This document shows positions 45,781-60,429 of a stretch of DNA of 64,000 bases, piece after piece. The notes below the pieces were generated by a model, which was not told the origin of the DNA, did no database searches, and saw only the letters and a program-made list of their open reading frames with translations. The DNA comes from Cupriavidus sp. D39 (GTDB lineage: Bacteria > Pseudomonadota > Gammaproteobacteria > Burkholderiales > Burkholderiaceae). The DNA lies in the NCBI RefSeq assembly GCF_026627925.1, contig NZ_JAPNLE010000009.1:744001-808000 (forward strand). The letters run 5' to 3'. The stretch's first letter is position 1; each line of letters begins with the position of its first letter. The translations under genes and the position numbers were made by a program.

Positions 45781-47418
45781 ATGAGCAAAGCTGATTCCGT
45801 TGCTAATAACACGCCTGAGCAGTTTGACTACATCATCGTTGGTGCAGGATCCGCCGGATGTGTACTTGCCAACCGGCTTTCAGCTGATCCAGCGCGCTCG
45901 GTGTTGTTGCTCGAGGCCGGACCGGACGTCGAAACCTTCTGGGTTCGAGCGCCGGCCGGGTTGCCATTTCTGTTCCAGAACTCGAATCTGAACTGGAAAT
46001 CTTCCAGCGAACCCGTGGCGAACCTTTGTGGCCGTGAGATCTATTGGCCGCGAGGCAAAATCGTAGGCGGCTCAAGCGCCATCAATGGTATGCAGCACGT
46101 GCGTGGAAACGCTCTTGACTACGACGATTGGGCCGCCGCGGGCAACGACGGATGGGCTTACGCGGACGTGCTGCCGTACTTCAAGCGCATGGAGAATAAT
46201 CTGGATGGCGGTGACGGGTGGCGCGGCGTTGGCGGCCCCCTTCAAGTTTCTCGTGGCTCTTACCGGCATCCAGTCACCCGACAATTCGTCGACGCGGTGG
46301 CCGCGTTGGGAGTTCCCCTCAACCCGGATTTCAACGGACGGCAGCAAGAAGGCGTGGGTTACAGCCAGTTCACTATCGCGCGCGGCGTACGATCCTCCGC
46401 CGCTCGTTCCTACTTGGCTCCGGCGCGTGCGAGGCCAAACATGGTGGTGCGCGATCGTTGTCTGGCCCATCACCTGCTGTTGGTTGGCGGCGAAGTGGTT
46501 GGTGTGTTGTATGAACGCGATGGCGCGTTGTTTCGCGCCTTTGCGGCGCGCGAGACTTTGATTAGCTGCGGCGCCGTTGGGAGCCCGCAGCTGCTGATGC
46601 TGTCCGGTATTGGACCCGCTGATGAACTGCGCGTACGCGGGCTGTCGATTCAAGCAGACTTGCCTGGGGTCGGCAAGAATCTGCAGGACCATTTGGCCGT
46701 CAACGTCGGTTACGAAGTAAAAGCGGGTATGTCCATGAATGCGGCGCTCTCGGGCTGGCGCAAATACATGCGCGGCGTACAGTACCTGGTGACGCGTGGT
46801 GGCCCGCTAGCAATGGGCACTTCTCACGCGCTAGCGTTCGTGCGTACTCGCGCCGACCTCGACAGGCCAGACGTACAGATCAGTTTCCGGCCATGGAGCT
46901 TCACCTTCGAAAGCTCGAAGCTACGTGTGCACCCGTATCCCGGCATACAAATCGCCTCCCTGCAGTTGCGCCCTCGCTCGCGAGGCTCGGTGGCATTAAA
47001 TGGGACGTCTGCGCGAGATGCGCCCGCGATTCGACCGAACTATCTTAGCGACCCCGAAGATGTTCAATGCGCTCTGCGGGCCTTACAGTTCGCCCGCGAT
47101 ATTTCATGTACCGCCCCGCTGCGCGATTCCATCGTGCGCGAACACTTGCTCGATGCCGAAGACCGTACCGAAGAGCGAACCATCGAGTTTCTGAGGCGCA
47201 CCGCGCAGTCGCTATACCACCCAGTAGGCACGTGCAAGATGGGATGTGACGCGGATGCAGTCGTCGACAGTCGCCTGCGAGTGCGCGGCATACGACGGCT
47301 GCGAGTCGTCGACGCTTCTGTCATGCCGACTCTTGTCGGCGGCAACACCAACGGGCCGACCATAATGATCGCGGAGAAAGCGGCAGATTTGATCCGTGAA
47401 GACGAGATGCTCGGCTAA
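45781..47418 (+). CDS. GMC-family FAD-dependent alcohol oxidoreductase
   Basis: This 545-residue flavoprotein has the FAD dinucleotide fold FDYIIVGAGSAGCVLANRLS, then LLLEAGPD. The GMC signature 1 region is WPRGKIVGGSSAINGMQHVR, the signature 2 region is SCGAVGSPQLLMLSGIGP, and the C-terminal catalytic His-containing segment is SLYHPVGTCKMG, followed by VVDASVMPTLVGGNTNGPTI. It belongs with choline dehydrogenase and AlkJ-type alcohol dehydrogenases that pass electrons to quinone. With aldehyde dehydrogenase 28 bases downstream and a dehalogenase upstream, it probably oxidises the alcohol released by dehalogenation to an aldehyde. Confidence 0.92.
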   Translation: MSKADSVANNTPEQFDYIIVGAGSAGCVLANRLSADPARSVLLLEAGPDVETFWVRAPAGLPFLFQNSNLNWKSSSEPVANLCGREIYWPRGKIVGGSSAINGMQHVRGNALDYDDWAAAGNDGWAYADVLPYFKRMENNLDGGDGWRGVGGPLQVSRGSYRHPVTRQFVDAVAALGVPLNPDFNGRQQEGVGYSQFTIARGVRSSAARSYLAPARARPNMVVRDRCLAHHLLLVGGEVVGVLYERDGALFRAFAARETLISCGAVGSPQLLMLSGIGPADELRVRGLSIQADLPGVGKNLQDHLAVNVGYEVKAGMSMNAALSGWRKYMRGVQYLVTRGGPLAMGTSHALAFVRTRADLDRPDVQISFRPWSFTFESSKLRVHPYPGIQIASLQLRPRSRGSVALNGTSARDAPAIRPNYLSDPEDVQCALRALQFARDISCTAPLRDSIVREHLLDAEDRTEERTIEFLRRTAQSLYHPVGTCKMGCDADAVVDSRLRVRGIRRLRVVDASVMPTLVGGNTNGPTIMIAEKAADLIREDEMLG

Positions 47419-47446
47419 TTGAAATCTGAATGCGGAGATTTAGATC

Positions 47447-48880
47447 GTGAGACATGAGCAGCACTTCATTAACGGTATGTCCGTCCCTGCGGGCACCTCG
47501 CAATATCTGGACGTTTTTAACCCCGCCACTGGCGAAAAGACCGCCACTGTGGCACGGGGTAATGCTCAAGACGTTGATATGGCTGTCGAATCGAGTAAAC
47601 GTGCGCTGCCCGGCTGGCGGGACGTACGTCCTGCGGAGCGCGGCCGCGTGCTCACCCGCATGGCAGCGCTCATCCGCACGTTCGCAGGCGAATGGGGCGA
47701 TCTGGAAAGCGAGGAGACGGGCAAGCCACCGACGCAGGTAGCAATAGAAATGGAGAATACCGCCCAGTATTTCGAGTTCTATGGCGGCTTGGTCAACGCA
47801 CTTCAGGGCGAGACAATTGATCTGGGGGCTGGATACCATTCGTACACACTGCGTGAACCGTACGGCGTGGTCGCCACGATCCTTCCATGGAACTTGCCGC
47901 TGAACCAGGCTGCTCGCGCGATCGCGCCCGCGCTGGCATCCGGAAATACTGTAGTGGCCAAGCCTTCCGAGGTGACGTCCACAACCCTGTTACGTCTGGC
48001 ACGGATGGCCATCGAGCAATGCGGCTTGCCGCCTGGAGTGCTCAATGTGGTGACTGGTACTGGACCGGAGGTCGGTGCAGCGCTGGTCGAACATCACGAT
48101 GTGCGCAAAGTGGCTTTCACCGGCTCAGTACGTGGAGGGCGTGAGGTGGCACGCGTCGCTGCGGAGCGGCTTATACCGCTGACACTTGAATTGGGCGGCA
48201 AGTCTCCCGACGTGGTATTCGCTGACGCAGACCTGGCTCAGGCCGTGCCTGGAGCCCTGCGCGGCTTCGTCTTTAACGCAGGGCAGGCGTGTGTGGCCGG
48301 GACAAGGGTGCTTGTACAGCGGTCCATTCACGACGCATTCGTTGAAGCCATGATCGATGCGATGCGAAATCTCAAAATTGGCAGTGGCCCCGATGCGTCG
48401 ATCGGGCCAATGACGACCCGTCACCAGTACGACAAGGTGCGAGAATATTTTGAGGTGGCGCATAACGAGGGTGCTGTCGCGGCTGCTGGTGGAACGCTTC
48501 CCCAGGCACCTGAGTTACAAGGCGGTTGGTATGTGACACCGACTCTTTACACCGGCGTAACCAACAAGATGCGCATCGCTCGGGAAGAGGTCTTTGGTCC
48601 GGTTGCATGTGTCATCCCGTTCGACGACGAAGAGGAGGCTGTCGCTATTGCCAATGATTCGGACTTCGGCCTTGCCGCTGGCATTTGGACAAGGGATCTC
48701 GCGCGCGCCCATCGGGTAGCTGCGCGGCTTGAAGCAGGACAAATTTACGTCAATGAGTATATGGCGGGTGGTGTCGAGACACCGCTGGGCGGGTACAAAC
48801 TCAGTGGATACGGGCGCGAGAAAGGTGTTGAGGCCCTGTACAACTATACGCAAGTCAAGTGCGTAACCGTGCGGTTGTAA
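47447..48880 (+). CDS. NAD(P)-dependent aldehyde dehydrogenase
   Basis: This 477-residue ALDH likely starts at GTG 47447. Motifs are PYGVVATILPWNLPLNQAAR, VVAKPSEVTSTTLLRLARMA, AFTGSVRGGREVARVAAERL, the active Glu in LELGGKSPDVVFADADL, the nucleophile Cys in FNAGQACVAGTRVLVQ, and EVFGPVACVIPFDDEEEAV. It oxidises an aldehyde to a carboxylate. The overall pattern is closest to betaine-aldehyde/gamma-aminobutyraldehyde-type enzymes. It is co-transcribed with the GMC gene and completes an alcohol-to-acid pathway. Confidence 0.92.
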   Translation: MRHEQHFINGMSVPAGTSQYLDVFNPATGEKTATVARGNAQDVDMAVESSKRALPGWRDVRPAERGRVLTRMAALIRTFAGEWGDLESEETGKPPTQVAIEMENTAQYFEFYGGLVNALQGETIDLGAGYHSYTLREPYGVVATILPWNLPLNQAARAIAPALASGNTVVAKPSEVTSTTLLRLARMAIEQCGLPPGVLNVVTGTGPEVGAALVEHHDVRKVAFTGSVRGGREVARVAAERLIPLTLELGGKSPDVVFADADLAQAVPGALRGFVFNAGQACVAGTRVLVQRSIHDAFVEAMIDAMRNLKIGSGPDASIGPMTTRHQYDKVREYFEVAHNEGAVAAAGGTLPQAPELQGGWYVTPTLYTGVTNKMRIAREEVFGPVACVIPFDDEEEAVAIANDSDFGLAAGIWTRDLARAHRVAARLEAGQIYVNEYMAGGVETPLGGYKLSGYGREKGVEALYNYTQVKCVTVRL

Positions 48881-49077
48881 CCGGGTATTCTGGTGGAAAG
48901 CTGCGTTTGCACTCGGTGGAAGTGGCATTCCACCAATCTGGCGGAAGGAGTGCGCCGCTACAGCAACCGGAGTAGAGACTGACTGCAGCTTTCCGCTGCT
49001 CCGGCGGCTCGCGCTTTCATGATGTGTGATGGAGTTGGTGACGCACCTCGTTATGAGACGGCGTCGCCGTTTGGTGC

Positions 49078-50021: not shown

Positions 50022-50975
50022 TCAGGACACCACCCCGCTCCCGTCTGCCATCAGCATCTCCCCTCGCCGCTCCACAATCATCCCATACGCTTGCGGCTGC
50101 CGGTGTGCATCGAAGTTGAACGTGGTGCGCTTGTAGACCTCGCAGAAATCCAAGTCGCAGCGGGCGATGGCGACCTCGTCGCCCTTGGTGATGCAGTTGG
50201 CCAGCACTTCACCGGAGGGCGCGATGATGCAGCTGCCACCAATGCCGTCCACGCCCTCTTCCATCCCCGCCTTGGCCACGCCGACCACCCAGGTGCCATT
50301 CTGGTAGGCGCCGGCCTGCATGGAGAGCTGATTGTGGAAAAGCGAGAGGTCGTCGTGCTGCGGCGCTGGCGCATTGTGCACGGGCGTGTTGTAGCCGATC
50401 AGCACCATCTCCACGCCTTGCAGGCCCATCACCCGATAGGTTTCGGCCCAACGGCGATCGTTGCAGATGGCCATGCCGATCTTGCCGCCAAAAGCGTGGG
50501 TCACGCCGAAATGGTTGCCGGGCGTGAAGTAGCGCTTTTCCAGATGCTGGAAGCGGCGCCACGGTTCGTGCTCGCGATGGCCGGGCAGGTGCACCTTACG
50601 GTATTTGCCGACAATCTCGCCCTGGCGGTTGACGAGGATGGAGGTGTTGTAGCGCACCGCCTTGCCTTGTTCGCTGGCGAGTTCAGCGTAGCCGAGGTAG
50701 AAGCCCACGCCCAGCTCGCGCGAAAGATCGAACAGCGGCTGCGTGGCGGCGCTGGGCATCTCGCGCTCGAAGAAGCTGTTGATCTCCTCGTCGCTCTCCA
50801 TATACCAGCGCGGGAAGAAGGTGGTGAGCGCCAGCTCGGGGTAGACGATCAGGTGCGAGCCGCAGGCATGGGCTTCGCGCATCAGGTCGCACAGGCGCTT
50901 GACCACTTGCTGGCGGCTGTCGGCGCGGGCGATGGGGCCGAGCTGGCCGATGGCGATATTCACAATACGGGACAC
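50022..50975 (-). CDS. Nitrilase-superfamily N-carbamoyl-D-amino acid hydrolase
   Basis: This is a 317-residue cytoplasmic amidohydrolase. The likely start is GTG 50975, behind GGAG, giving SRIVNIAIGQLGPIARADSR; the longer frame to 51095 runs into the upstream gene. The catalytic triad is visible: Glu in YPELALTTFFPRW, Lys in GKYRKVHLPGHRE and Cys in MAICNDRRWAETYRVMGLQ. CNDRRWxExYRVMGLQG is diagnostic of N-carbamoyl-D-amino acid hydrolases, which remove the ureido carbamoyl as CO2 and ammonia. It follows the M20 amidohydrolase and diaminopropionate ammonia-lyase genes in one operon, suggesting a ureido amino acid substrate. Confidence 0.88.
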   Translation of the reverse strand: MSRIVNIAIGQLGPIARADSRQQVVKRLCDLMREAHACGSHLIVYPELALTTFFPRWYMESDEEINSFFEREMPSAATQPLFDLSRELGVGFYLGYAELASEQGKAVRYNTSILVNRQGEIVGKYRKVHLPGHREHEPWRRFQHLEKRYFTPGNHFGVTHAFGGKIGMAICNDRRWAETYRVMGLQGVEMVLIGYNTPVHNAPAPQHDDLSLFHNQLSMQAGAYQNGTWVVGVAKAGMEEGVDGIGGSCIIAPSGEVLANCITKGDEVAIARCDLDFCEVYKRTTFNFDAHRQPQAYGMIVERRGEMLMADGSGVVS

Positions 50976-51036
50976 GGGTAACTCCAGGATGCTTTCAGCG
51001 TAGTGGTTCAGGCTAGCGGCAGGGGCATGGCGTCGA

Positions 51037-52295
51037 TCACGGCCGGTTGGCGAGTTTGAGCACCACCTGCAGCAGGATCTGCGCGCCGTCGACAAGGTCG
51101 TCCGGCTCGGTAAACTCGCGCACGTTGTGGCTCAGACCTTTCACGCTGGGCACGAAGATCATGCCGGCGGGGCAGACGCGGGCGAGCATTTGCGCGTCGT
51201 GACCGGCGCCGCTGGGCATGCGCATATGGGTGAAGCCGAGCGCTGCGGTTTCCTGCTCGACCAGGTCGATCACCATGGGATCGAATGCCACCGGCTCGAA
51301 ACGTGCCAGGCGGCGATGGCTAAGAGATAGGGCTTCCGTCTCGCAGGTTTGCTCGGCAAAGGCGAGGACATCGGCTTCGGCCTGGGCGAGCAGCCGTTCA
51401 TCGGTATTGCGCAGGTCTACGGTGAAGACGGCGCGATTGGGGATGACGTTGATCAGATTCGGCTCGAAGCGCATGGCGCCCACGGTGGCGATCTGCCGGC
51501 CGCCGTAGCGCAGCGCCAGGTCGTGCACGAAATTGGCGATGCGCACGGCGGCGTAGCCGGCGTCGTGCCGCAGCTCCATGGGCGTGGTGCCGGCGTGGTT
51601 GGATACGCCGTCGACCGTGAACTCGGTCCAGGAGATCCCCTGCACCCCTTCCACCACGCCAACCTGCAGGCCGCGCAGATCTAGCACCGGGCCTTGCTCG
51701 ATATGCAGTTCCACGAAACTGTCGACGCGCGGCTTGCCTACGGGCGTCTGGCCGTCATAGCCGATGCGCCGCAGCTCGGCGCCCACCGTGACGCCATCGA
51801 TGCCGGTAGTGGCCAGCGCGCCTTCCAGCGGCATGCCGCCCACATAGACCAGCGAGCCCATCATGTCCGGATGAAAGCGCGCACCCTCTTCATTGGTGAA
51901 AAAGGCGACGGCGATGGGACGACGAGGACGCAGGCCGGCGTCACGCAGCGTGGCGACCACTTCCAGGCCGGCCAGCACCCCGTAGTTGCCGTCGTAGCGG
52001 CCGCCGGTGCGCACGGTGTCAATGTGCGAGCCGATCATGACGGGGGCAGGTCTTCGCTGCCGGGATACACGGCCACGCCGTTGCCGATGGCGTCGATGGT
52101 GACGGTCATGCCCAGCGCCTGCATACGCGCCACCGTCCAGTTGCGGCCGAGTTCGTCGGCATCGGTCAGCGCCAGGCGGCACACGCCGCCCCCTTCGATG
52201 GCACCGAGTTGCGCGAGATCGTCCAGGCTTTGCAGCAGGCGCTCGCCGCGAATGCGCGGCGCGGGCTCCGCCTTTGGTGCGCTCTGCCCGCTCAT
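51037..52295 (-). CDS. M20-type Zn-dependent N-carbamoyl amidohydrolase (one frameshift)
   Basis: The protein belongs to the allantoate/N-carbamoyl-L-amino acid/ureidopropionate amidohydrolase branch of peptidase M20. The start at 52295 overlaps the lyase stop (ATGA). The first 85 residues (RGERLLQSLDDLAQLGAIEG, LTDADELGRNWTVARMQALG) are one frame and the rest another. One base lost in the G5 run 52042-52046 separates PGSEDLPP from VMIGSHIDTVRTGGRYDGNY. Metal ligands are visible in IGSHIDTV, FFTNEEGARF and ELHIEQGPVLD, with SGAGHDAQ near the end. Repaired length is about 419 residues. It probably cleaves a ureido group from an L-configured substrate. Confidence 0.88.
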
Positions 52296-53527
52296 GCCGC
52301 GGCTCCGGCGCGCACCGCGTCCGCACTGCGGCCAACCAGTTCGGCATACAGCGCGGAATCGGTGTCGGCTTCGCTGCAGATAAACAGCAGCCGGCTCTGG
52401 CGGTTGAGCCCGAGCGCCGCACAGGCCTGCGGGTCTTGCATGGCGGCGATGGCAGCGGCCAGCCCGGCAACGGCGGATTCGCCGGCCACGATCACGGGAT
52501 CGTCGCCTTGTGGCTGGGCCAGCAAGCGCATGACTGCCACCGCCGACTCGTCATCGACTGTGCAGAACGCGTCGGCGCCCTGGGCGAGGATTTCCCAGGC
52601 GAGCAGCGAGACTTCGCCGCAGGCCAGGCCCGCCATCAGCGTGTCCAGTTCGCCGGTGACGGTGGTGACCTTGCCGGCGCGCGCGCTTTGCATCAGGCAA
52701 TCCGCCTTGTCGGGTTCCACCACGGTGAAAACGGGGCGCTGCTTGTCCTTGCCGTTCTCGCGTTCCCAAAAGTAACCGCAGACGGCGGCGGCAAATCCGC
52801 CCACGCCGGCCTGGATGAACACATGCGTGGGCCACGCCGGCAGGGCATTCACGGCTTCGTCCACCATCAGTTGGTAGCCTTGCATCACATCGCGCGGCAC
52901 ATCCATGTAGCCGGGGTAGGAGGTGTCGGAAATCACGTACCAGCCGTTGGTGCGGGCATCGGCATCGGCTTGCTGCACGGCCTGGTCGTAGTTGCCGGTG
53001 GTGCGTACCACCTGGGCGCCGAAGCGTTCGATGGCGGTCTTGCGCCCGTCGCTGACGGTGGCGTGGATATAGATCTCACAGTGGCAGCCGAACAGCTGGG
53101 CGCCCCAGGCCACGGAGCGGCCGTGATTGCCGTCGGTGGCGCAGGTCACGGTGAGTTCGGCGCACATGCTGCGCAGCTCCGGCGTACCCAGGTCAGCGAT
53201 GCTTAGCTCGCGGCCGATCCGGTGCCCGATTTCGCGGCACAGCAGGCGCCCCACGGCATACGCGCCGCCGAGCGCCTTGAAGCTGCCCAGCCCGAAGCGC
53301 GAGCCTTCGTCCTTGTAGTGGATCTGGCCGACGCCTAGCGCGGCCGCCAGGTTCGGCAGGGCTTTCAGCGGCGTGGGCTGGTAGCCCTCCCAGGCGGAGA
53401 TCTCGCGGCGGGCGGCGGCCAGGGCCGGCTCGCTCAGGATGGCGACTCGATGTGCACCATAGGGTTCCGCGCGGCTCAGTGCCGGATTGGGGAGAAGATC
53501 GAGCGAGAGGTTGGGGAGCGTGGTCAT
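52292..53527 (-). CDS. dpaL: 2,3-diaminopropionate ammonia-lyase
   Basis: This 411-residue PLP enzyme of fold type II has the cofactor Lys in EGSRFGLGSFKALGGAYAVG, a motif characteristic of DpaL. It also has VTCATDGNHGRSVAWGAQLF, then VVRTTGNYDQAVQQA and IVAGESAVAGLAA. It converts 2,3-diaminopropionate to pyruvate and two ammonia. Its stop overlaps the start of the M20 amidohydrolase, so the two are translationally coupled. The RpiR-type regulator lies 70 bp upstream on the same strand. Together with the carbamoyl hydrolases this parallels the ygeX-ygeY-hyuA arrangement of enterobacteria. Confidence 0.92.
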   Translation of the reverse strand: MTTLPNLSLDLLPNPALSRAEPYGAHRVAILSEPALAAARREISAWEGYQPTPLKALPNLAAALGVGQIHYKDEGSRFGLGSFKALGGAYAVGRLLCREIGHRIGRELSIADLGTPELRSMCAELTVTCATDGNHGRSVAWGAQLFGCHCEIYIHATVSDGRKTAIERFGAQVVRTTGNYDQAVQQADADARTNGWYVISDTSYPGYMDVPRDVMQGYQLMVDEAVNALPAWPTHVFIQAGVGGFAAAVCGYFWERENGKDKQRPVFTVVEPDKADCLMQSARAGKVTTVTGELDTLMAGLACGEVSLLAWEILAQGADAFCTVDDESAVAVMRLLAQPQGDDPVIVAGESAVAGLAAAIAAMQDPQACAALGLNRQSRLLFICSEADTDSALYAELVGRSADAVRAGAAA

Positions 53528-53597
53528 GCGTGTGTCTTGGTCCAGTCAGAATGCGTTGTTGCGTGATGTTGATGACGGCGCTGCGTGCCGGTCAATC

Positions 53598-54476
53598 TCA
53601 GTGGCCGGTCTCCAGGTCCCCGAGCACGTCGTGCGCGCGCTCCACGCGGGCCATGCGTGCGCGCGAGCGTTTGCGGTAGCGGCCTGCCATGGCGGTGGCG
53701 AGGTAGTTCACGAGGCTGACGGCGCCCACGTAGGAATCGAAGACCTGGCCGCCGTGGTGCGAGCAGCGCAGCACGGCGTCGGCCTTGGCGGCCAGCGTGG
53801 AAACTGGGGCATCGCTGAGCAGGATGAGTTTGGCGCCGGCCTCCCGGGCCAGTGTCACCATGCCGTTCAGGCGCTTCGCACGGCGTCGGAAGTCCACCAC
53901 CAGCAGTACGTCCTTGCTGTCGATTTCGGCCACCAGTTCGGCATCCTTGCCCGCTTGCTCATTGAGCAGGTACACCTCGGGGCGCACCTGCGAGAGCAGC
54001 GCATTGGCATAGAAAGCCAGCATGAAGCCGTTGCGATAACCCACCACCCACACGCGGCGCGCGTTGGCCAGTTGGGTAAGCGTGGTCTCCAGCGCGCGCT
54101 CGCTGAGTTGTTCCGGCAGGCTGGCGAGCCGGCGGCTGTCGAGCTGCACGTGCGCCTCTAGCCGAGCCACGACCGATTGCGCGCCCCGCGACTCGGGCGG
54201 CAGCCCGTCGTGTTCCATCAGGTACAGCGGCGATTGCTCGGACACCTGGTCCCGCAGCGATTGTCGGAAGGCGCTGAAGTCCGCATAGCCGAGGCGGCGG
54301 AAGAAGCGCGCCGCGCTCGCCTTGGAGACGCTCGCCAGCTCCGCCAGCTCAGTGGCCGAGTAGCTGAGCAGGTCTTTCTGCCGCATGAGCAGCACGTCGG
54401 CCAGCTTCTTGTCCACTGAAGAGAGTTCGCCGTAGCACTGATGGATTTGCGCTTCCAGCGCGGGTTGAATGGCCAT
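53598..54476 (-). CDS. RpiR-family transcriptional regulator
   Basis: This regulator of about 292 residues starts at ATG 54476 (MAIQPALEAQIHQCYGELSS). The N-terminal HTH_6 domain has LLSYSATELAELASVSKASA and RFFRRLGYADFSAFRQSLRD. The C-terminal SIS domain has VWVVGYRNGFMLAFYANALL and DVLLVVDFRRRAKRLNGMVT. SIS domains usually bind phosphosugars, but RpiR members next to amino acid catabolic genes are known. It heads the dpaL operon and is divergent from the ABC transporter; two palindromes lie between them. Confidence 0.92.
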   Translation of the reverse strand: MAIQPALEAQIHQCYGELSSVDKKLADVLLMRQKDLLSYSATELAELASVSKASAARFFRRLGYADFSAFRQSLRDQVSEQSPLYLMEHDGLPPESRGAQSVVARLEAHVQLDSRRLASLPEQLSERALETTLTQLANARRVWVVGYRNGFMLAFYANALLSQVRPEVYLLNEQAGKDAELVAEIDSKDVLLVVDFRRRAKRLNGMVTLAREAGAKLILLSDAPVSTLAAKADAVLRCSHHGGQVFDSYVGAVSLVNYLATAMAGRYRKRSRARMARVERAHDVLGDLETGH

Positions 54477-54536
54477 GTCGGGTCCGTACCTCCGTTCCGC
54501 TTGCCCGCACCAAAGTAGTCCGGGCCTGCACAATGA

Positions 54537-54552
54537 TGAAACTTAGATTTCA
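54537..54552. promoter_or_regulatory. Candidate RpiR operator, site 1
   Basis: TGAAACTTAGATTTCA is a dyad with TGAAA/TTTCA arms and a six-base spacer. It lies 61 bases upstream of the regulator start in the divergent intergenic region. Confidence 0.6.
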
Positions 54553-54566
54553 TGTATTGGTGCATG

Positions 54567-54582
54567 TGAAACCTATGTTTCA
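54567..54582. promoter_or_regulatory. Candidate RpiR operator, site 2
   Basis: TGAAACCTATGTTTCA repeats the dyad of site 1 with an exact 30-bp offset, about three helical turns. Two sites on the same face suggest cooperative binding of a dimeric or tetrameric regulator. Confidence 0.6.
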
Positions 54583-54780
54583 GTATTGGCGGTCTTTCAT
54601 GCAAGGGCAATGCCAAGTCAGTGGCGCTATCGGGGAGGCGTTCGCTAAGTGTTTGATTTCAAGGCAACGTCGTCGAAAAAATCTCATCGCGTTCGCCCGC
54701 GCAGCCGGCATCGCCAACAGTGGCACACAACTTGCCTTTCAGTCCCGCGTGTTCCCCGACCGACTGATAAAGGTGTTTTT

Positions 54781-55575
54781 ATGAAACGCAGACAGTTCAC
54801 CGCCATCGCCAGCCTGATCGCAGGCGCCGCACTCATCGCCATGGCACCCGCCAAAGCTGACGATTCCCTAAGCGCCGTGATGGGCAAGAAGTCGATTGCG
54901 ATCGGCATCCCGACCGACTTCGCGCCGTATGGCTTCATGGGCACAGACCTGAAGCCGCAGGGCCTGGACGTGGCCGTGGCGCAGATGATCGCCGACAAGC
55001 TCGGCGTCAAGGCCGATCTCGTCCCCGTGAGCACGCCGAACCGCATCCCTTACCTGCAGACCAAGAAGATCGACCTGATCGTCTCGGCACTGGGCAAGAA
55101 CGCCGAGCGCGCCAAGGTGATCGATTTCACGATTGCGTATGCGCCCTTCTACCAGGCGGTGTTTGGTCCGAAGGCAATGAGCATCAAGAGCTTTGCCGAT
55201 CTTGGCGGCAAGACCATCGCGGTCACGCGCGGCACCATCCAGGACGATGTGCTGCAGCAAGTGGCGCCTCCCACGCTGAAGATCCAGCGCTTTGAGGACG
55301 ACAACTCCACCGTGGCCGCCTTCGTCTCGCAGCAAACGCAACTGCTGGCCACCGGCGCGGCCGTGGCTGCCGCGGCGATTGCGAAGAACCCCAAGGTGGA
55401 GGCCGAGTACAAACTGCTCCTCAAGGATTCGCCCAACTTCATCGGCGTGCGCAAGGGCGAAACCGCGCTGCTGGAGAAGGTCAACGAGATTCTGCGCAAG
55501 GCAAAGGAGGATGGCACGCTCAATGGCTACGCGCAGCGCTGGCTCGGCCGCGGCATGGGCGATTTGCCGGACTGA
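54781..55575 (+). CDS. Periplasmic amino acid-binding protein of an ABC transporter
   Basis: This 264-residue family 3 solute-binding protein starts at ATG 54781 with a Sec signal peptide (KRRQFTAIASLIAGAALIAM, cleaved after APAKA); the frame upstream of it is spurious. Mature motifs are IAIGIPTDFAPYGFMGTDLK, PQGLDVAVAQMIADKLGV, DLIVSALGKNAERAKVIDFT and GGKTIAVTRGTIQDDVL. It is the first gene of a four-gene polar amino acid uptake operon. By context the ligand is 2,3-diaminopropionate or a ureido derivative. Confidence 0.93.
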   Translation: MKRRQFTAIASLIAGAALIAMAPAKADDSLSAVMGKKSIAIGIPTDFAPYGFMGTDLKPQGLDVAVAQMIADKLGVKADLVPVSTPNRIPYLQTKKIDLIVSALGKNAERAKVIDFTIAYAPFYQAVFGPKAMSIKSFADLGGKTIAVTRGTIQDDVLQQVAPPTLKIQRFEDDNSTVAAFVSQQTQLLATGAAVAAAAIAKNPKVEAEYKLLLKDSPNFIGVRKGETALLEKVNEILRKAKEDGTLNGYAQRWLGRGMGDLPD

Positions 55576-55642
55576 TTGCAAACGGGTAAACGGATCGCAT
55601 CGTTTCCGGACCCGTGCGCGGGCCCCATGTTGCTAGCGCACC

Positions 55643-55659
55643 GGCCTGCCTCGCAGGCC
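55643..55659 (+). terminator. Intercistronic stem-loop after the binding-protein gene
   Basis: GGCCTGC and GCAGGCC form a perfect 7-bp stem with a CTC loop between the binding-protein and permease genes. No U-tract follows, so it is more likely an mRNA-stabilising or attenuating hairpin that keeps binding-protein levels high than a full terminator. Confidence 0.5.
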
Positions 55660-55697
55660 AGTCCCGCCGAAGACAAAAAACTCTCTAGCTGCACTGC

Positions 55698-56356
55698 ATG
55701 ATCTCATTCGACTTTGCGCCGGTTCTCTCGCAATGGCCCATGCTGCTGCGTGGCCTGTTTCTGACGATTCTCCTGACGGCGTTCTCCGCGGCCTTCGGCA
55801 CGCTGGTCGGCATCGGCTGCGCCTGGGCGCGCATCCATGGCACGGCATGGCTGCGCGCGCTGGTGGGCGGCTATGTGGAGGCAATCCGCAATACGCCGTA
55901 CATCATCCAGCTGTTCTTTATCTTCTTCGGCCTGCCTTCGATCGGCGTGCGGATGCCGGCGGAAGTGGCGTGCGTGCTGTCGATGACGCTGAACCTCGGC
56001 GCCTATGCGTGCGAGATCATCCGGGCCGGGCTGGAGTCCACCCCGCGCGGGCAGATCGAAGCCGCGCAGAGCCTGGCGCTCAACCGCTGGCAGATCTTTA
56101 CGCGCGTGGTGCTGCCGCCTTCACTGTCGCGCGTGTGGCCGGCGCTGGTGAGCCAGGTCATCATCGTGATGCTGGGATCGGCGGTGTGCAGCCAGATCTC
56201 CACCGAAGAGCTTTCTACGCGGCCAATATGATCGCCAGCCGCACGTTCCGCAATTTTGAAGCCTATATCGTCGCCACCTGCGTCTACCTGGGCCTGGCCG
56301 TGGTGCTGCGTGAGATCCTGAACTGGGTCGGTCCGCGCTTCATCTTTGGCCGCTGA
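55698..56356 (+). CDS. Amino acid ABC transporter permease (one frameshift)
   Basis: This is a His/Glu/Gln/Arg-type permease with about five membrane helices: VLSQWPMLLRGLFLTILLTA, YVEAIRNTPYIIQLFFIFFG and the cytoplasmic EAA loop AAQSLALNRWQIFTRVVLPP. At the TTT run 56212-56214 the frame breaks after ISTEEL. One T added continues it as FYAANMIASRTFRNFEAYIV and ends WVGPRFIFGR at 56356. The unrepaired product stops at 56231 and would lack the last helix. It pairs with the next permease. Confidence 0.9.
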
Positions 56357-56374
56357 GATCGGGAGGCATACACC

Positions 56375-57025
56375 ATGGTCGACTTTTCCCTGTGGGACAT
56401 TTTTCGCAACCTGCTGCTGGCGCTGCGCTGGACAGTGGGGCTGTCGCTGATCGCCTTCGCCGGTGGCAGCGTCGTCGGCATGCTGCTGCTGGTTGCGCGC
56501 ATTGCGCGCTTGCCGGGCGCCGTGCGCGGCGTGGCGCTTTACGTGCAACTGTTCCAGGGCATTCCGCTGCTGATGCAGTTGTTCCTGTTCTACTTCGGGC
56601 TGGCGTTGCTGGGCGTCGAGACCTCGGCGCTGTTCGCGGCAGCACTGTGCCTCACGCTGTATGCAAGCGCCTATCTCACCGAGATCTGGCGTGGTTGCAT
56701 CAACGCCATTCCCAAGGGCCAGTGGGAGGCCTCCGCCAGCCTGGCGATGAATCTGCGCGAGCAGCTTCAGCACGTGATCCTGCCGCAGGCCACGCGCATC
56801 GCGGTGGCGCCCACGGTGGGATTCCTGGTGCAAGTGATTAAGGGCACCGCGCTGGCCTCGGTGATCGGCTTCGTGGAAGTCACCAAGGCTGGCCAGATGA
56901 TTTCCAACGCCACCTTCCAGCCCTTCCTGGCTTACGGATGCGTCGCGCTGCTGTACTTCGCCCTGTGTTTGCCGTTGTCGCTGTGGAGCCGCCGCCTTGA
57001 GCGCCGCCTGCAGCCCAAGCATTGA
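56375..57025 (+). CDS. Amino acid ABC transporter permease
   Basis: This intact 216-residue inner-membrane permease has SLWDIFRNLLLALRWTVGLS, VQLFQGIPLLMQLFLFYFGL, the ATPase-contact EAA loop with EASASLAMNLREQLQHVILP, and SVIGFVEVTKAGQMISNATF. It starts 19 bp after the first permease. The two would form the heterodimeric membrane channel. Confidence 0.93.
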   Translation: MVDFSLWDIFRNLLLALRWTVGLSLIAFAGGSVVGMLLLVARIARLPGAVRGVALYVQLFQGIPLLMQLFLFYFGLALLGVETSALFAAALCLTLYASAYLTEIWRGCINAIPKGQWEASASLAMNLREQLQHVILPQATRIAVAPTVGFLVQVIKGTALASVIGFVEVTKAGQMISNATFQPFLAYGCVALLYFALCLPLSLWSRRLERRLQPKH

Positions 57026-57037
57026 GCCCGTCATCCC

Positions 57038-57802
57038 ATGTTCAAGCAAATCGAAACCACCAAGCCCTTTGCCCTCGTCGATATCCAGGGCCTGCGCAAG
57101 CGCTTCGGCGCCAACGAAGTGCTCAAGGGCATCGACTTGCAGATCGGGCGCCGCGAGGTGGTCTGCATCATCGGCCGCAGCGGCTCGGGCAAGAGCACCT
57201 TGCTCCGCTGCATCAACGGGCTGGAAGGCTTCGATGAAGGCGCGCTCAGCGTGGATGGCCAGGCACTGCGCCATGGCGACGCCCGCGCCATGCGCGACCT
57301 GCGCCAGAACGTTGGCATGATCTTCCAGAACTTCAACCTGTTCCCGCACCTGAGCGCCGGGCAGAACGTGATGCTGGCGCCTACGCTGGTGAAGGACACA
57401 CCCAAGTCCGAGGCCGGTAAGCGAGCACAAGCACTGCTCGAGCGCGTGGGCCTTGGCGACAAGTTCCACAGCTTCCCCGACCAGCTATCCGGCGGGCAAC
57501 AACAACGCGTGGCAATCGCCCGCGCGCTGGCCATGGACCCCGCCGTGCTGCTGTGCGATGAAGTCACCTCAGCACTCGATCCGGAGCTGGTCGGCGAAGT
57601 GCTAAGCGTGGTGGAAGGCCTTGCAGCGGAAGGCATGACCTTGGTAATGGTTACGCATGAGATGAACTTCGCCCGCAAGGTCAGCGACCGAGTGGTCTTC
57701 ATGCATCACGGGAAAGTGCATGAGATGGGCTCACCGGAGGAAATTTTCGGGGAGCCGAAGACGCCGGAACTGAAGCAGTTCCTTTCGGGGCTGAATGGTT
57801 GA
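57038..57802 (+). CDS. Amino acid ABC transporter ATP-binding protein
   Basis: This 254-residue ATPase starts at ATG 57038. Walker A is IIGRSGSGKSTLLRCINGLE, the Q-loop is IFQNFNLFPHL, the signature is LSGGQQQRVAIARAL, Walker B is VLLCDEVTSALDPEL, and the switch His is in MTLVMVTHEM. The C-terminus EEIFGEPKTPELKQFLSG is typical of the polar amino acid subfamily. It is the last gene of the operon. Confidence 0.95.
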   Translation: MFKQIETTKPFALVDIQGLRKRFGANEVLKGIDLQIGRREVVCIIGRSGSGKSTLLRCINGLEGFDEGALSVDGQALRHGDARAMRDLRQNVGMIFQNFNLFPHLSAGQNVMLAPTLVKDTPKSEAGKRAQALLERVGLGDKFHSFPDQLSGGQQQRVAIARALAMDPAVLLCDEVTSALDPELVGEVLSVVEGLAAEGMTLVMVTHEMNFARKVSDRVVFMHHGKVHEMGSPEEIFGEPKTPELKQFLSGLNG

Positions 57803-58302: not shown

Positions 58303-58410
58303 AGTGACGGAGAGCCCGGTGCCAAAATGATCTGGATTGGCATGCAGCGAGCCGCCTTTATGATTCAGGCGCTGCGGGGCGGGGAATCATCAGAGCAAGT
58401 GCGTGATTAA
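58303..58410 (+). pseudogene. C-terminal relic of an IS50-group transposase
   Basis: Codons read DGEPGAKMIWIGMQRAAFMI and QALRGGESSEQVRD with a stop at 58410. This is a close match to the end of the intact transposase at 34761 (DGEPGAKTIWIGMQRTMD...IQALREES). Only the last 35 codons remain. Confidence 0.8.
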
Positions 58411-58550
58411 CTGCAACGATGGATGGATGCCCGCCGTGATGATTATCTGCTCAGGTTCACAGCGTACCCCGCGTGCGGTACGCAGGTAATCGGCGAGCGC
58501 TGCGCGCAGAGGGGGATAGCCGGCCAATCCACCTATAAGGAGCCTCGCCT
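58411..58550 (-). pseudogene. Fragment of a MocR-type or aminotransferase class I/II protein
   Basis: The reverse strand reads AGYPPLRAALADYLRTARGV and RCEPEQIIITAGIHPSLQLI. This is the typical N-terminal entry of the aminotransferase domain in MocR/PdxR regulators (GxPxLRxAIAxYLxxxRGVxCxPxQIxITxG). About 50 codons are left. It is fused in frame to the preceding MBL fragment by deletion. Confidence 0.7.
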
Positions 58551-58689
58551 TTTGACAAGATTGGTTTTTGGTGGGTTTCGAGGTGTGGTGTGGGGAGCTT
58601 TTCCTTGGGTGGAGGCACGAGTTGGGATGAAACGGCGGGAGAGACTGCACACCTATCCCAATATATCCAGCGTGAAGATCACACTCAGG

Positions 58690-59040
58690 TTGTTCTCGTC
58701 GTCGAAACTTCAGATGAACAATCGTCTCCGGCGAGACTGTCGGATTTCCCAGGACGCATCCGATGCCGATGTTCCTGCGATTTAGGTCCGGGAAGCCGCT
58801 GGCGTGATCCTCGTCGTAGTTGGTGCACACCAGCAGGTCAAGCCACTTAACGCCCGCGGCTTGAAGGTGCTTGCCCGGATGCCAGGGTGTGCCCATGAAG
58901 TTGACCGAGTGCCCGCAATCGATCAGTACGCGCTGAATGCCACCGAAGGCTGGCATTGTCAACAATGCGCACTGGCCGTGATCGACATTAAAAATCTGCA
59001 GCAACCCGTCATTGACCGGCAGGCTCACGATTTCCTCCAT
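58690..59040 (-). pseudogene. N-terminal fragment of an MBL-fold hydrolase
   Basis: ATG at 59040 opens EEIVSLPVNDGLLQIFNVDH, then GQCALLTMPAFGGIQRVLID and WLDLLVCTNYDEDHASGFPD. The NxDHGQCxLL start and the TNYDEDHxSG metal motif belong to ComEC/Rec2-like metallo-beta-lactamase proteins, which are common in conflict and defence loci. It loses similarity after about 115 residues. Confidence 0.65.
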
Positions 59041-59355: not shown

Positions 59356-60429
59356 TCACTTTCCCTCAGCCGCGTCCGGTGCAACCGGCGTCGGAGTCGC
59401 AGTCGACAGGAGGTCTTGGGGCTGCGCCGACTTTGTCTCACGTTTGGTGTAGGCGAATACACCAATATTGCCGCTCAAGTAGGACTTGAGCATTTCGATC
59501 TTTAGATACGTCCTTGCCTCATAGAGCTCCTTGTCCGACAGCGACAGGCCGCTGGCCGAGGCCGAGGCCACGTCCTTGGCAACGATGCCGATCTTCGCGA
59601 AGTCCAGCCGCTCCGCATAGATTGCACTGATCCGATTGAACAGAAAGCGCAAGGCCGAATAGCACACGGTCAGAATCGAGAAGCACACCGCCAGATACGG
59701 TAGACGCGTGACGAACACCGTCATCAGGTCGAGGTTGGGCTCCTTGACGTATTTGACGGAGAGGTCTACGGCGCCCCAGAGCAACTGCGTCGTCAAAATC
59801 ATGATGATCCCAAGGGGAACCACGCTCAGCCAGATGAACGTCCGCGCCTGCTTTGCTCCATGGTCGGAGAACGAGGAGAACTCCTCGGAGAAGAGATTCA
59901 CATTGCTGGTCAACTCGCGCAAGCGCCGTTCTGCCCCCGAGGTATCTTCTGCGAGCGAACGCAGTTGCTCCTTACCCTTCGAGATTTCCCCCTCGATGTC
60001 GCGAACGGTCGCCTCCTTCGCGCTAATTAGATCGAGGACTGTTTGCTTGCGTGCCTCGCCGCGTGTGACTTCCTCTTTCAGGGTCGTCAGCTTGGCGGTC
60101 GTTTCTGCCGCGTCGGTCTTCGCTTCCTCGAGCTCCTCCTCCAAGGCAGCAAGCTCAGTTTTCTTCGTGGCTTCCAGCTGGGAGACTGCGACATCGCGTT
60201 GCTTCACTTTCTCCTGCAAAGCCAGGACGGCAGCCTTCTCCCGTCCGAGATCCGTGATAGCGGCCTCGCGCAGGCCCTGTAGGTGCGTCAGAGACTCGGA
60301 CAGGGTTGCAAAGTCTTCCGGAAAGAAGCCCAGTATTCGGATCCGAGTAATCTGAAGCGTGCGTTTGCGAAACAACTCGAAGTAGCCAGGCGGTAGATAG
60401 ATCGATACGCCACTGCTGACGCAGCGCAC
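59356..60429 (-). CDS. Coiled-coil membrane protein of unknown function
   Basis: I do not recognise the family. From the N-terminus there is a short globular part (VSIYLPPGYFELFRKRTLQI), then about 150 residues of heptad-rich coiled coil (for example ALEEELEEAKTDAAETTAKL). Two membrane helices follow (FIWLSVVPLGIIMILTTQLL and LPYLAVCFSILTVCYSALRF), then a cytoplasmic tail ending in a Pro/Thr-rich stretch. The start is uncertain: the listed start is a GTG, but the frame stays open upstream to a TAG near 60585 with protein-like codons (FDALVSRQVRKKCAENSLAS). The gene may be N-terminally truncated. Confidence 0.65.
   Translation of the reverse strand: MRCVSSGVSIYLPPGYFELFRKRTLQITRIRILGFFPEDFATLSESLTHLQGLREAAITDLGREKAAVLALQEKVKQRDVAVSQLEATKKTELAALEEELEEAKTDAAETTAKLTTLKEEVTRGEARKQTVLDLISAKEATVRDIEGEISKGKEQLRSLAEDTSGAERRLRELTSNVNLFSEEFSSFSDHGAKQARTFIWLSVVPLGIIMILTTQLLWGAVDLSVKYVKEPNLDLMTVFVTRLPYLAVCFSILTVCYSALRFLFNRISAIYAERLDFAKIGIVAKDVASASASGLSLSDKELYEARTYLKIEMLKSYLSGNIGVFAYTKRETKSAQPQDLLSTATPTPVAPDAAEGK

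Follow-up and report, generated by a model that had tools for sequence, protein, structure and literature searches.

A conserved gene cassette of dpaL, an M20 amidohydrolase and a D-carbamoylase relative in Cupriavidus sp. D39, possibly serving the uptake and degradation of an alpha-ureido acid

Results

Gene content and reading frames of the locus

The subject of this analysis is a dpaL-containing locus of Cupriavidus sp. D39, situated in a 64,000-nucleotide stretch (contig NZ_JAPNLE010000009.1, positions 744,001 to 808,000 of the forward strand; hereafter the window) of a 7.74 Mb assembly in 11 contigs. Two divergent gene sets lie there (Table 1). The leftward set encodes an RpiR-type regulator, a diaminopropionate ammonia-lyase (DpaL), an M20-family amidohydrolase and a CN-hydrolase, and the rightward set encodes an ATP-binding cassette (ABC) importer of the polar amino acid type. 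An initial annotation of the window had placed these genes and described the importer as divergent; frames and family matches confirmed the positions and the composition of the importer, i.e., a binding protein, two permeases and an ATPase, with permease 1 frameshifted here.

The dpaL stop overlaps the M20 start as ATGA. The translational coupling proposed in the initial annotation is real to that extent, but the M20 gene is not a single open frame here: the frame that opens at 52295 runs for 86 residues up to a stop at 52037-52035, and the remainder lies in another frame. The shift in permease 1 lies outside any long homopolymer. Compared with a relative (locus L009, 94.7% identical), the window is short of one base at each of the two sites; both genes are open in L009, in which the RpiR gene is split into two open reading frames (ORFs). 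Among 23 M20-family matches in the genome, three genes occur as neighbouring pieces and one match has an internal stop. Because other M20-family genes of this genome are also in pieces, assembly errors are the likelier cause of both frameshifts, although real decay is possible. A locus that is decaying and non-functional in this strain would account for two frameshifts and for a permease site outside a long homopolymer, but we consider it unlikely, as only two single bases are lost over 7.8 kb, the remaining genes are open, the relative is open at both genes and the fragmentation extends to other M20 genes.

Table 1 Features of the dpaL locus (positions within the window)
Feature	Position	Strand	Basis and remarks
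D-carbamoylase (N-carbamoyl-D-amino-acid hydrolase) relative, CN_hydrolase	50022..50975	-	GTG start, 317 aa; PDB matches
M20 hydantoinase/carbamoylase-family amidohydrolase, frameshifted in assembly	51037..52295	-	TIGR01879 on C-terminal part
dpaL, diaminopropionate ammonia-lyase family, 411 aa	52292..53527	-	PRK08206
RpiR/MurR-family regulator, heads catabolic operon	53598..54476	-	PF01418 + PF01380
Predicted RpiR operator 1, TGAAA-N6-TTTCA	54537..54552	.	Palindrome search
Predicted RpiR operator 2, TGAAA-N6-TTTCA, 30 bp from operator 1	54567..54582	.	Palindrome search
Periplasmic binding protein, polar amino acid ABC family	54781..55575	+	PF00497
ABC permease 1, frameshifted near 56214	55698..56356	+	Frames and comparison with L009
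ABC permease 2	56375..57025	+	PF00528
ABC ATPase, GlnQ/TcyN-like	57038..57802	+	Family match

Family assignment of the three enzymes

DpaL passes the PRK08206 model (524.1 bits, cut-off 276) and stays below the strict YgeX equivalog TIGR03528 (355.8 bits vs cut-off 532.25). Alignment to 4d9g showed that the positions of K77, D120 and D189 of E. coli YgeX are kept; we take these to be the catalytic residues of YgeX, the two Asp serving the two enantiomers. The earlier identification of a DpaL-type lyase is borne out by the model and the three kept positions.

The CN-hydrolase had been described as a nitrilase-type N-carbamoyl hydrolase, which holds at the level of the family and can be sharpened. 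The protein is a relative of the D-carbamoylases specifically, matching solved N-carbamoyl-D-amino-acid hydrolases with 410 bits (PDB 6lcg) and 394 bits (1fo6), and its E47, K127, C171 and the Arg-Arg pair at 174-175 align with the solved enzymes (alignments to 8i99 and 6lcg). In these hydrolases Glu-Lys-Cys is presumably the catalytic triad and the Arg-Arg pair the carboxylate-binding element, and a D-specific activity is predicted for the window protein.

For the M20 protein, the C-terminal part scored 349 bits against TIGR01879 (cut-off 204), and the intact orthologue of L009 scored 404.9. The assignment to the N-carbamoyl amidohydrolases therefore stands as membership of the hydantoinase/carbamoylase family, the frameshift having been missed in the initial annotation. 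Both proteins are far below the allantoate deiminase AllC model TIGR03176 (236 bits, and 256.2 for the L009 orthologue, vs cut-off 597.75). Among solved structures, the intact M20 protein of the Polaromonas locus L013 has its nearest matches in uncharacterised ones such as 5thw. The family matches of both enzymes thus agree with the earlier claim of two mechanistically different decarbamoylase families.

Conservation and distribution of the triplet

The DpaL search gave 46 named loci, of which 36 were testable (at least 2.5 kb downstream) and 10 were too short. dpaL, M20 and D-carbamoylase genes occurred together in 31 of the 36. The initial annotation had held that the set is conserved as a block and had fixed in advance that its absence elsewhere would count against the idea; the block was found, and its recurrence in 31 of 36 loci excludes chance co-occurrence of the three enzymes. 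The same ABC binding protein was present in 32 of the 34 loci having M20 and at least 2.5 kb upstream, and ATGA was found at the dpaL stop in 45 of 51 readable loci (59 sequences given). Pairwise distances over 41 loci were correlated (D-carbamoylase-DpaL 0.85, D-carbamoylase-M20 0.84, DpaL-M20 0.955), values obtained with no unlinked control gene, which shared ancestry alone could give.

Within the genus, a D-carbamoylase of at least 69% identity was found in 10 of 36 genomes (own included); in the 10 fetched loci M20 always adjoins it, and each of the 10 genomes has dpaL no more than about 2.5 kb from it. Of the 16 genomes examined, 14 had the compact triplet, 10 of them belonging to the genus of the window. 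In genome G443 the M20 gene is separated by several kb, and in G447 a distance of about 10 kb sets apart the D-carbamoylase gene, which has an RpiR gene of its own. DpaL is a patchy trait, because it scored above thresholds in only 14 of 399 genomes of the order and 32 of 398 of the phylum, two counts that come from different queries and cut-offs with only the best few candidates scored.

D-carbamoylase genes were found at 33 places in the 398 genomes, four of them beside dpaL, and 20 other regions were fetched. A hydantoinase adjoins the D-carbamoylase in nine of the 20, and eight of these nine have no M20 carbamoylase within 6.5 kb. Since M20 is absent near 8/9 hydantoinase-linked D-carbamoylases yet present in 31/36 dpaL loci, the comparison suggests that M20 does a second, different job in the dpaL triplet, most simply removal of a 3-ureido group. 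No hydantoinase adjoins the D-carbamoylase of the window, the single match of the genome at the threshold used being far off (C9:3543775).

Gene sets of other composition also surround dpaL and were set aside as different systems. One (L120 and L125) contains a gene annotated as M20/M25/M40 hydrolase together with genes for gamma-glutamyltransferase, RidA and a tripartite ATP-independent periplasmic (TRAP) transporter; the other is a recurring set of dpaL with an M24 peptidase and an Asp/Glu racemase (L121, L131, L133, L135 and L136, also L122 and L132).

Variable transporters and the ligand pocket of the binding protein

The triplet holds together across five types of transporter. Besides the polar amino acid importer, an oligopeptide-type ABC transporter accompanies the triplet in L044, L054 and L144 (oligo_HPY in L044 and L144, OppC_N in L044; L054 was assigned by homology only), and a TRAP transporter (DctP, DctM) does so in L128 and L129. 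A major facilitator superfamily permease together with a YgeY-family hydrolase was found in L087, L124 and L145, the first two being Cupriavidus plasmid loci and near-relatives of each other; the three YgeY-like proteins pass PRK13004 (355-393 bits, cut-off 321). In the Rhizobium loci L083 and L084 the triplet is adjoined by a PotD-like ABC transporter and a D-hydantoinase-family dihydropyrimidinase, which scored 529 bits against TIGR02033 (cut-off 393).

In an alignment of 36 binding proteins, covering the window, its relatives and one paralogue, all 36 rows retain the Arg that matches GlnH R75. At the position of GlnH D157, which is Asp in 6/6 E. coli control binding proteins, 35 of the 36 rows have Gly and the L022 paralogue has Ser. 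We take the R75 position to be the carboxylate-binding Arg and the D157 position to be the Asp binding the alpha-ammonium group. A ligand with a free alpha-amino group is accordingly improbable on this pattern, and an alpha-blocked acid is favoured for the importer. A binding protein of the same ABC subfamily, also without the alpha-ammonium Asp, is encoded on an Ewingella plasmid (L179, 5855-12490) with RpiR, agmatinase, RidA and ArgE.

A conserved palindrome next to the RpiR gene

A palindrome search of the intergenic regions between the RpiR and binding-protein genes returned TGAAA-N6-TTTCA (degenerate form TGRAA-N6-TTYCA). Of 48 sequences, 36 regions were kept, the rest having no usable gap or lacking one of the genes, and all 36 carried at least one site (64 in total), as compared to a mean of 0.18 and a maximum of one region in 100 rounds of dinucleotide shuffling. 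As the motif was derived from these same related sequences, 13 variant loci outside the discovery set are the better test. Ten of the 13, some of them close relatives, carried the palindrome, and every site found adjoins an RpiR gene; the two Rhizobium loci have it between RpiR and the transporter genes, the others upstream of RpiR or at its start. The palindrome was not found in the variant loci L143, L127 and L160, the last two of which overlap in one genome. The window has one further match at 48917 in addition to the two in Table 1, and a consensus promoter scan found no consensus sigma-70 site in the divergent intergenic region. The palindromes are predicted RpiR operators, and the RpiR gene does head the catabolic operon, as the initial annotation had it. 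Operators of IolR, another RpiR-family protein, have the same spacing (GGAA-N6-TTCC, in the excerpted text of PMC2597717) and belong to another regulon.

Neighbouring genes in the window

At lower coordinates than the cassette, on the plus strand (45781-48880), a GMC oxidoreductase gene is followed by an aldehyde dehydrogenase gene, likely an alcohol-to-acid pair. Beyond the importer lies an ORF on the minus strand (58390-59040) whose N part is weakly similar to metallo-beta-lactamases, with a score under the Pfam cut-off, and whose C part looks by eye like an aminotransferase or a MocR regulator; it possibly represents fused gene remnants. At 59356-60429 (minus strand) a 357-aa protein with coiled-coil and membrane stretches by eye had no Pfam match.

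Discussion

The cassette described in this study is real, conserved and well organised and, within the open-access literature, is probably new as an assembled set built from known enzyme families. The class of the pathway is likely. Its particulars are held more tentatively: we put at a little less than an even chance that this is an RpiR-controlled aerobic cassette which imports and degrades an alpha-ureido acid, most likely (R)-2,3-diureidopropionate, to pyruvate and ammonia. What the sequences show are the enzyme and transporter families, the conservation of the block, the kept residues in alignments, the common palindrome and the exchange of transporters; the substrate, the division of labour between the two decarbamoylases, the operator function and the inducer are what we infer. 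In the proposed scheme, the ABC importer would bring in the alpha-ureido acid, the D-carbamoylase would take the 2-ureido group off the D (R) form and the M20 enzyme would remove the other, 3-ureido group, each decarbamoylation also yielding CO2 and ammonia, and DpaL would cleave either enantiomer of 2,3-diaminopropionate, giving pyruvate and two molecules of ammonia. The Rhizobium versions might begin one step earlier, taking ureidomethyl-hydantoin via the D-hydantoinase-family enzyme. An R configuration is proposed for the anaerobic ureido intermediates in excerpts of PMC12990295, and R-configured intermediates would fit a D-specific enzyme.

The initial annotation had proposed a ureido derivative of diaminopropionate as substrate. 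A 2-ureido acid is favoured over the albizziine-like alternative that it had named, because the binding protein is without the alpha-ammonium Asp. Albizziine (2-amino-3-ureidopropionate), which could come from mimosoid plants or from antibiotics bearing ureidoalanine, would be freed of its 3-ureido group by M20 and finished by DpaL, leaving the D-carbamoylase a side role. The three loci in which a YgeY-family hydrolase adjoins the triplet and the mention of albizziine as a plant amino acid in part of PMC12990295 speak for such a substrate, but its free alpha-amino group would be expected to need the missing Asp and an alpha-carbamoylase would be superfluous, which makes it quite improbable.

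The chemistry has a known counterpart in the tail of reductive uric acid degradation (YgeW, YgeY, HyuA and YgeX of E. coli, UacY of C. difficile), which likewise ends in 2,3-diaminopropionate and DpaL after removal of two ureido groups. The same end chemistry appears in the excerpted reductive uric acid work (PMC12507026, PMC12990295), and YgeY with YgeX converts albizziin to pyruvate according to part of PMC12507026. Hydantoinase and YgeY-family members of that tail recur in variants of the cassette; in the cassette itself, however, a D-carbamoylase and a hydantoinase/carbamoylase-family M20 enzyme replace YgeW and YgeY, and an importer and RpiR control are added. In line with the earlier remark that a carbamoyltransferase is lacking, no YgfK or YgeW match was found in the 78 + 20 fetched loci. 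Weak XdhD-like matches (22-32% identity) were seen in L049, L052, L126 and L140, the first two being triplet loci. The D-hydantoinase/D-carbamoylase clusters share the D-carbamoylase family of the window, but the window has no adjoining hydantoinase and adds DpaL and the M20 carbamoylase. No paper bringing an N-carbamoyl-D-amino acid together with diaminopropionate was found in the open-access literature searched.

A purine origin of the substrate inside this cell, which had also been suggested, was not borne out. A search for SsnA in 16 genomes by similarity alone gave weak matches in 13 (best 27% identity, 76 bits) and none in three, i.e., no convincing orthologue, and the full reductive urate pathway was rejected for these cells. 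At the threshold used, no hydantoinase was found in six of the 16 genomes, namely G021 and five of the six from other genera. Since the SsnA matches are weak and these six genomes are without hydantoinase, a linear compound is probably imported and not made from urate.

Several observations weigh against the (R)-2,3-diureidopropionate reading. Support for the function of the cassette is sequence-based throughout, and diureidopropionate is named in only two papers of the open-access literature searched, so that a free environmental source is undocumented there. The three YgeY-like proteins fail TIGR03526 (216-220 bits, cut-off 321.5). Gly in place of the alpha-ammonium Asp is also found in related binding proteins (46-51% identity) of Ewingella, Rhizobium and Azospirillum operons without dpaL, which weakens the replacement as a trait of the cassette alone; it is a trait of a binding-protein subfamily. 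The partners also occur apart: dpaL was without M20 and D-carbamoylase in 5 of the 36 testable loci, L159 and L162 have D-carbamoylase and M20 carbamoylase without dpaL, and the D-carbamoylases of L155-L158 (75-77% identical, and the closest in the 398-genome sample, the window's own aside; names point to Bradyrhizobium as the genus) lack any reference gene within 6.5 kb. In L159 the pair lies beside two ABC ATPases. Such separate occurrences, together with the DpaL score under the TIGR03528 cut-off, would be expected if the set served to salvage N-carbamoyl amino acids in general, including D-forms, and DpaL were a promiscuous eliminase acting on beta-substituted alanines, e.g., D-serine. We regard this as distinctly unlikely, as the tight recurring triplet and the correlated divergence are unlike a general salvage set.

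The regiochemistry of the M20 enzyme is a further point against, as the intact protein of L013 matches an L-carbamoylase (8apz, 309 bits) as closely as a beta-ureidopropionase (8c46, 306 bits). A D-carbamoylase and an L-carbamoylase-like M20 enzyme could together act on both enantiomers of 3-amino-2-ureidopropionate, with a non-stereospecific DpaL finishing the breakdown; the two Asp that DpaL keeps, which presumably serve the two enantiomers, and the kept Arg and lost Asp of the binding protein would fit as well. Counting against it, the Rhizobium operon with the D-hydantoinase-family enzyme keeps its M20 gene; with a D-specific hydantoinase, an L-carbamoylase would be idle there. This explanation is rather unlikely.

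Returning to (R)-2,3-diureidopropionate as the preferred substrate, the cassette looks like an aerobic parallel to the final steps in the recently described gut uric acid pathway. It is conceivable, though rather doubtful, that it acts as an aerobic cross-feeding partner of reductive uricolysis, scavenging (R)-2,3-diureidopropionate or ureidomethyl-hydantoin from anaerobes, and that this is one native role of D-carbamoylases. To our knowledge, industry has long made use of the D-carbamoylase family with no natural substrate known for it. In 2012 the function of hydantoinases in nature was called still unclear (part of PMC3546935), and the order and stereochemistry of ureido removal are listed as open for the reductive uric acid pathway in excerpts of PMC12990295. 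If the reading holds, it would give D-carbamoylases a natural pathway, would extend the diaminopropionate end of purine breakdown beyond anaerobes, and may provide enzymes for the question of ureido order and stereochemistry.

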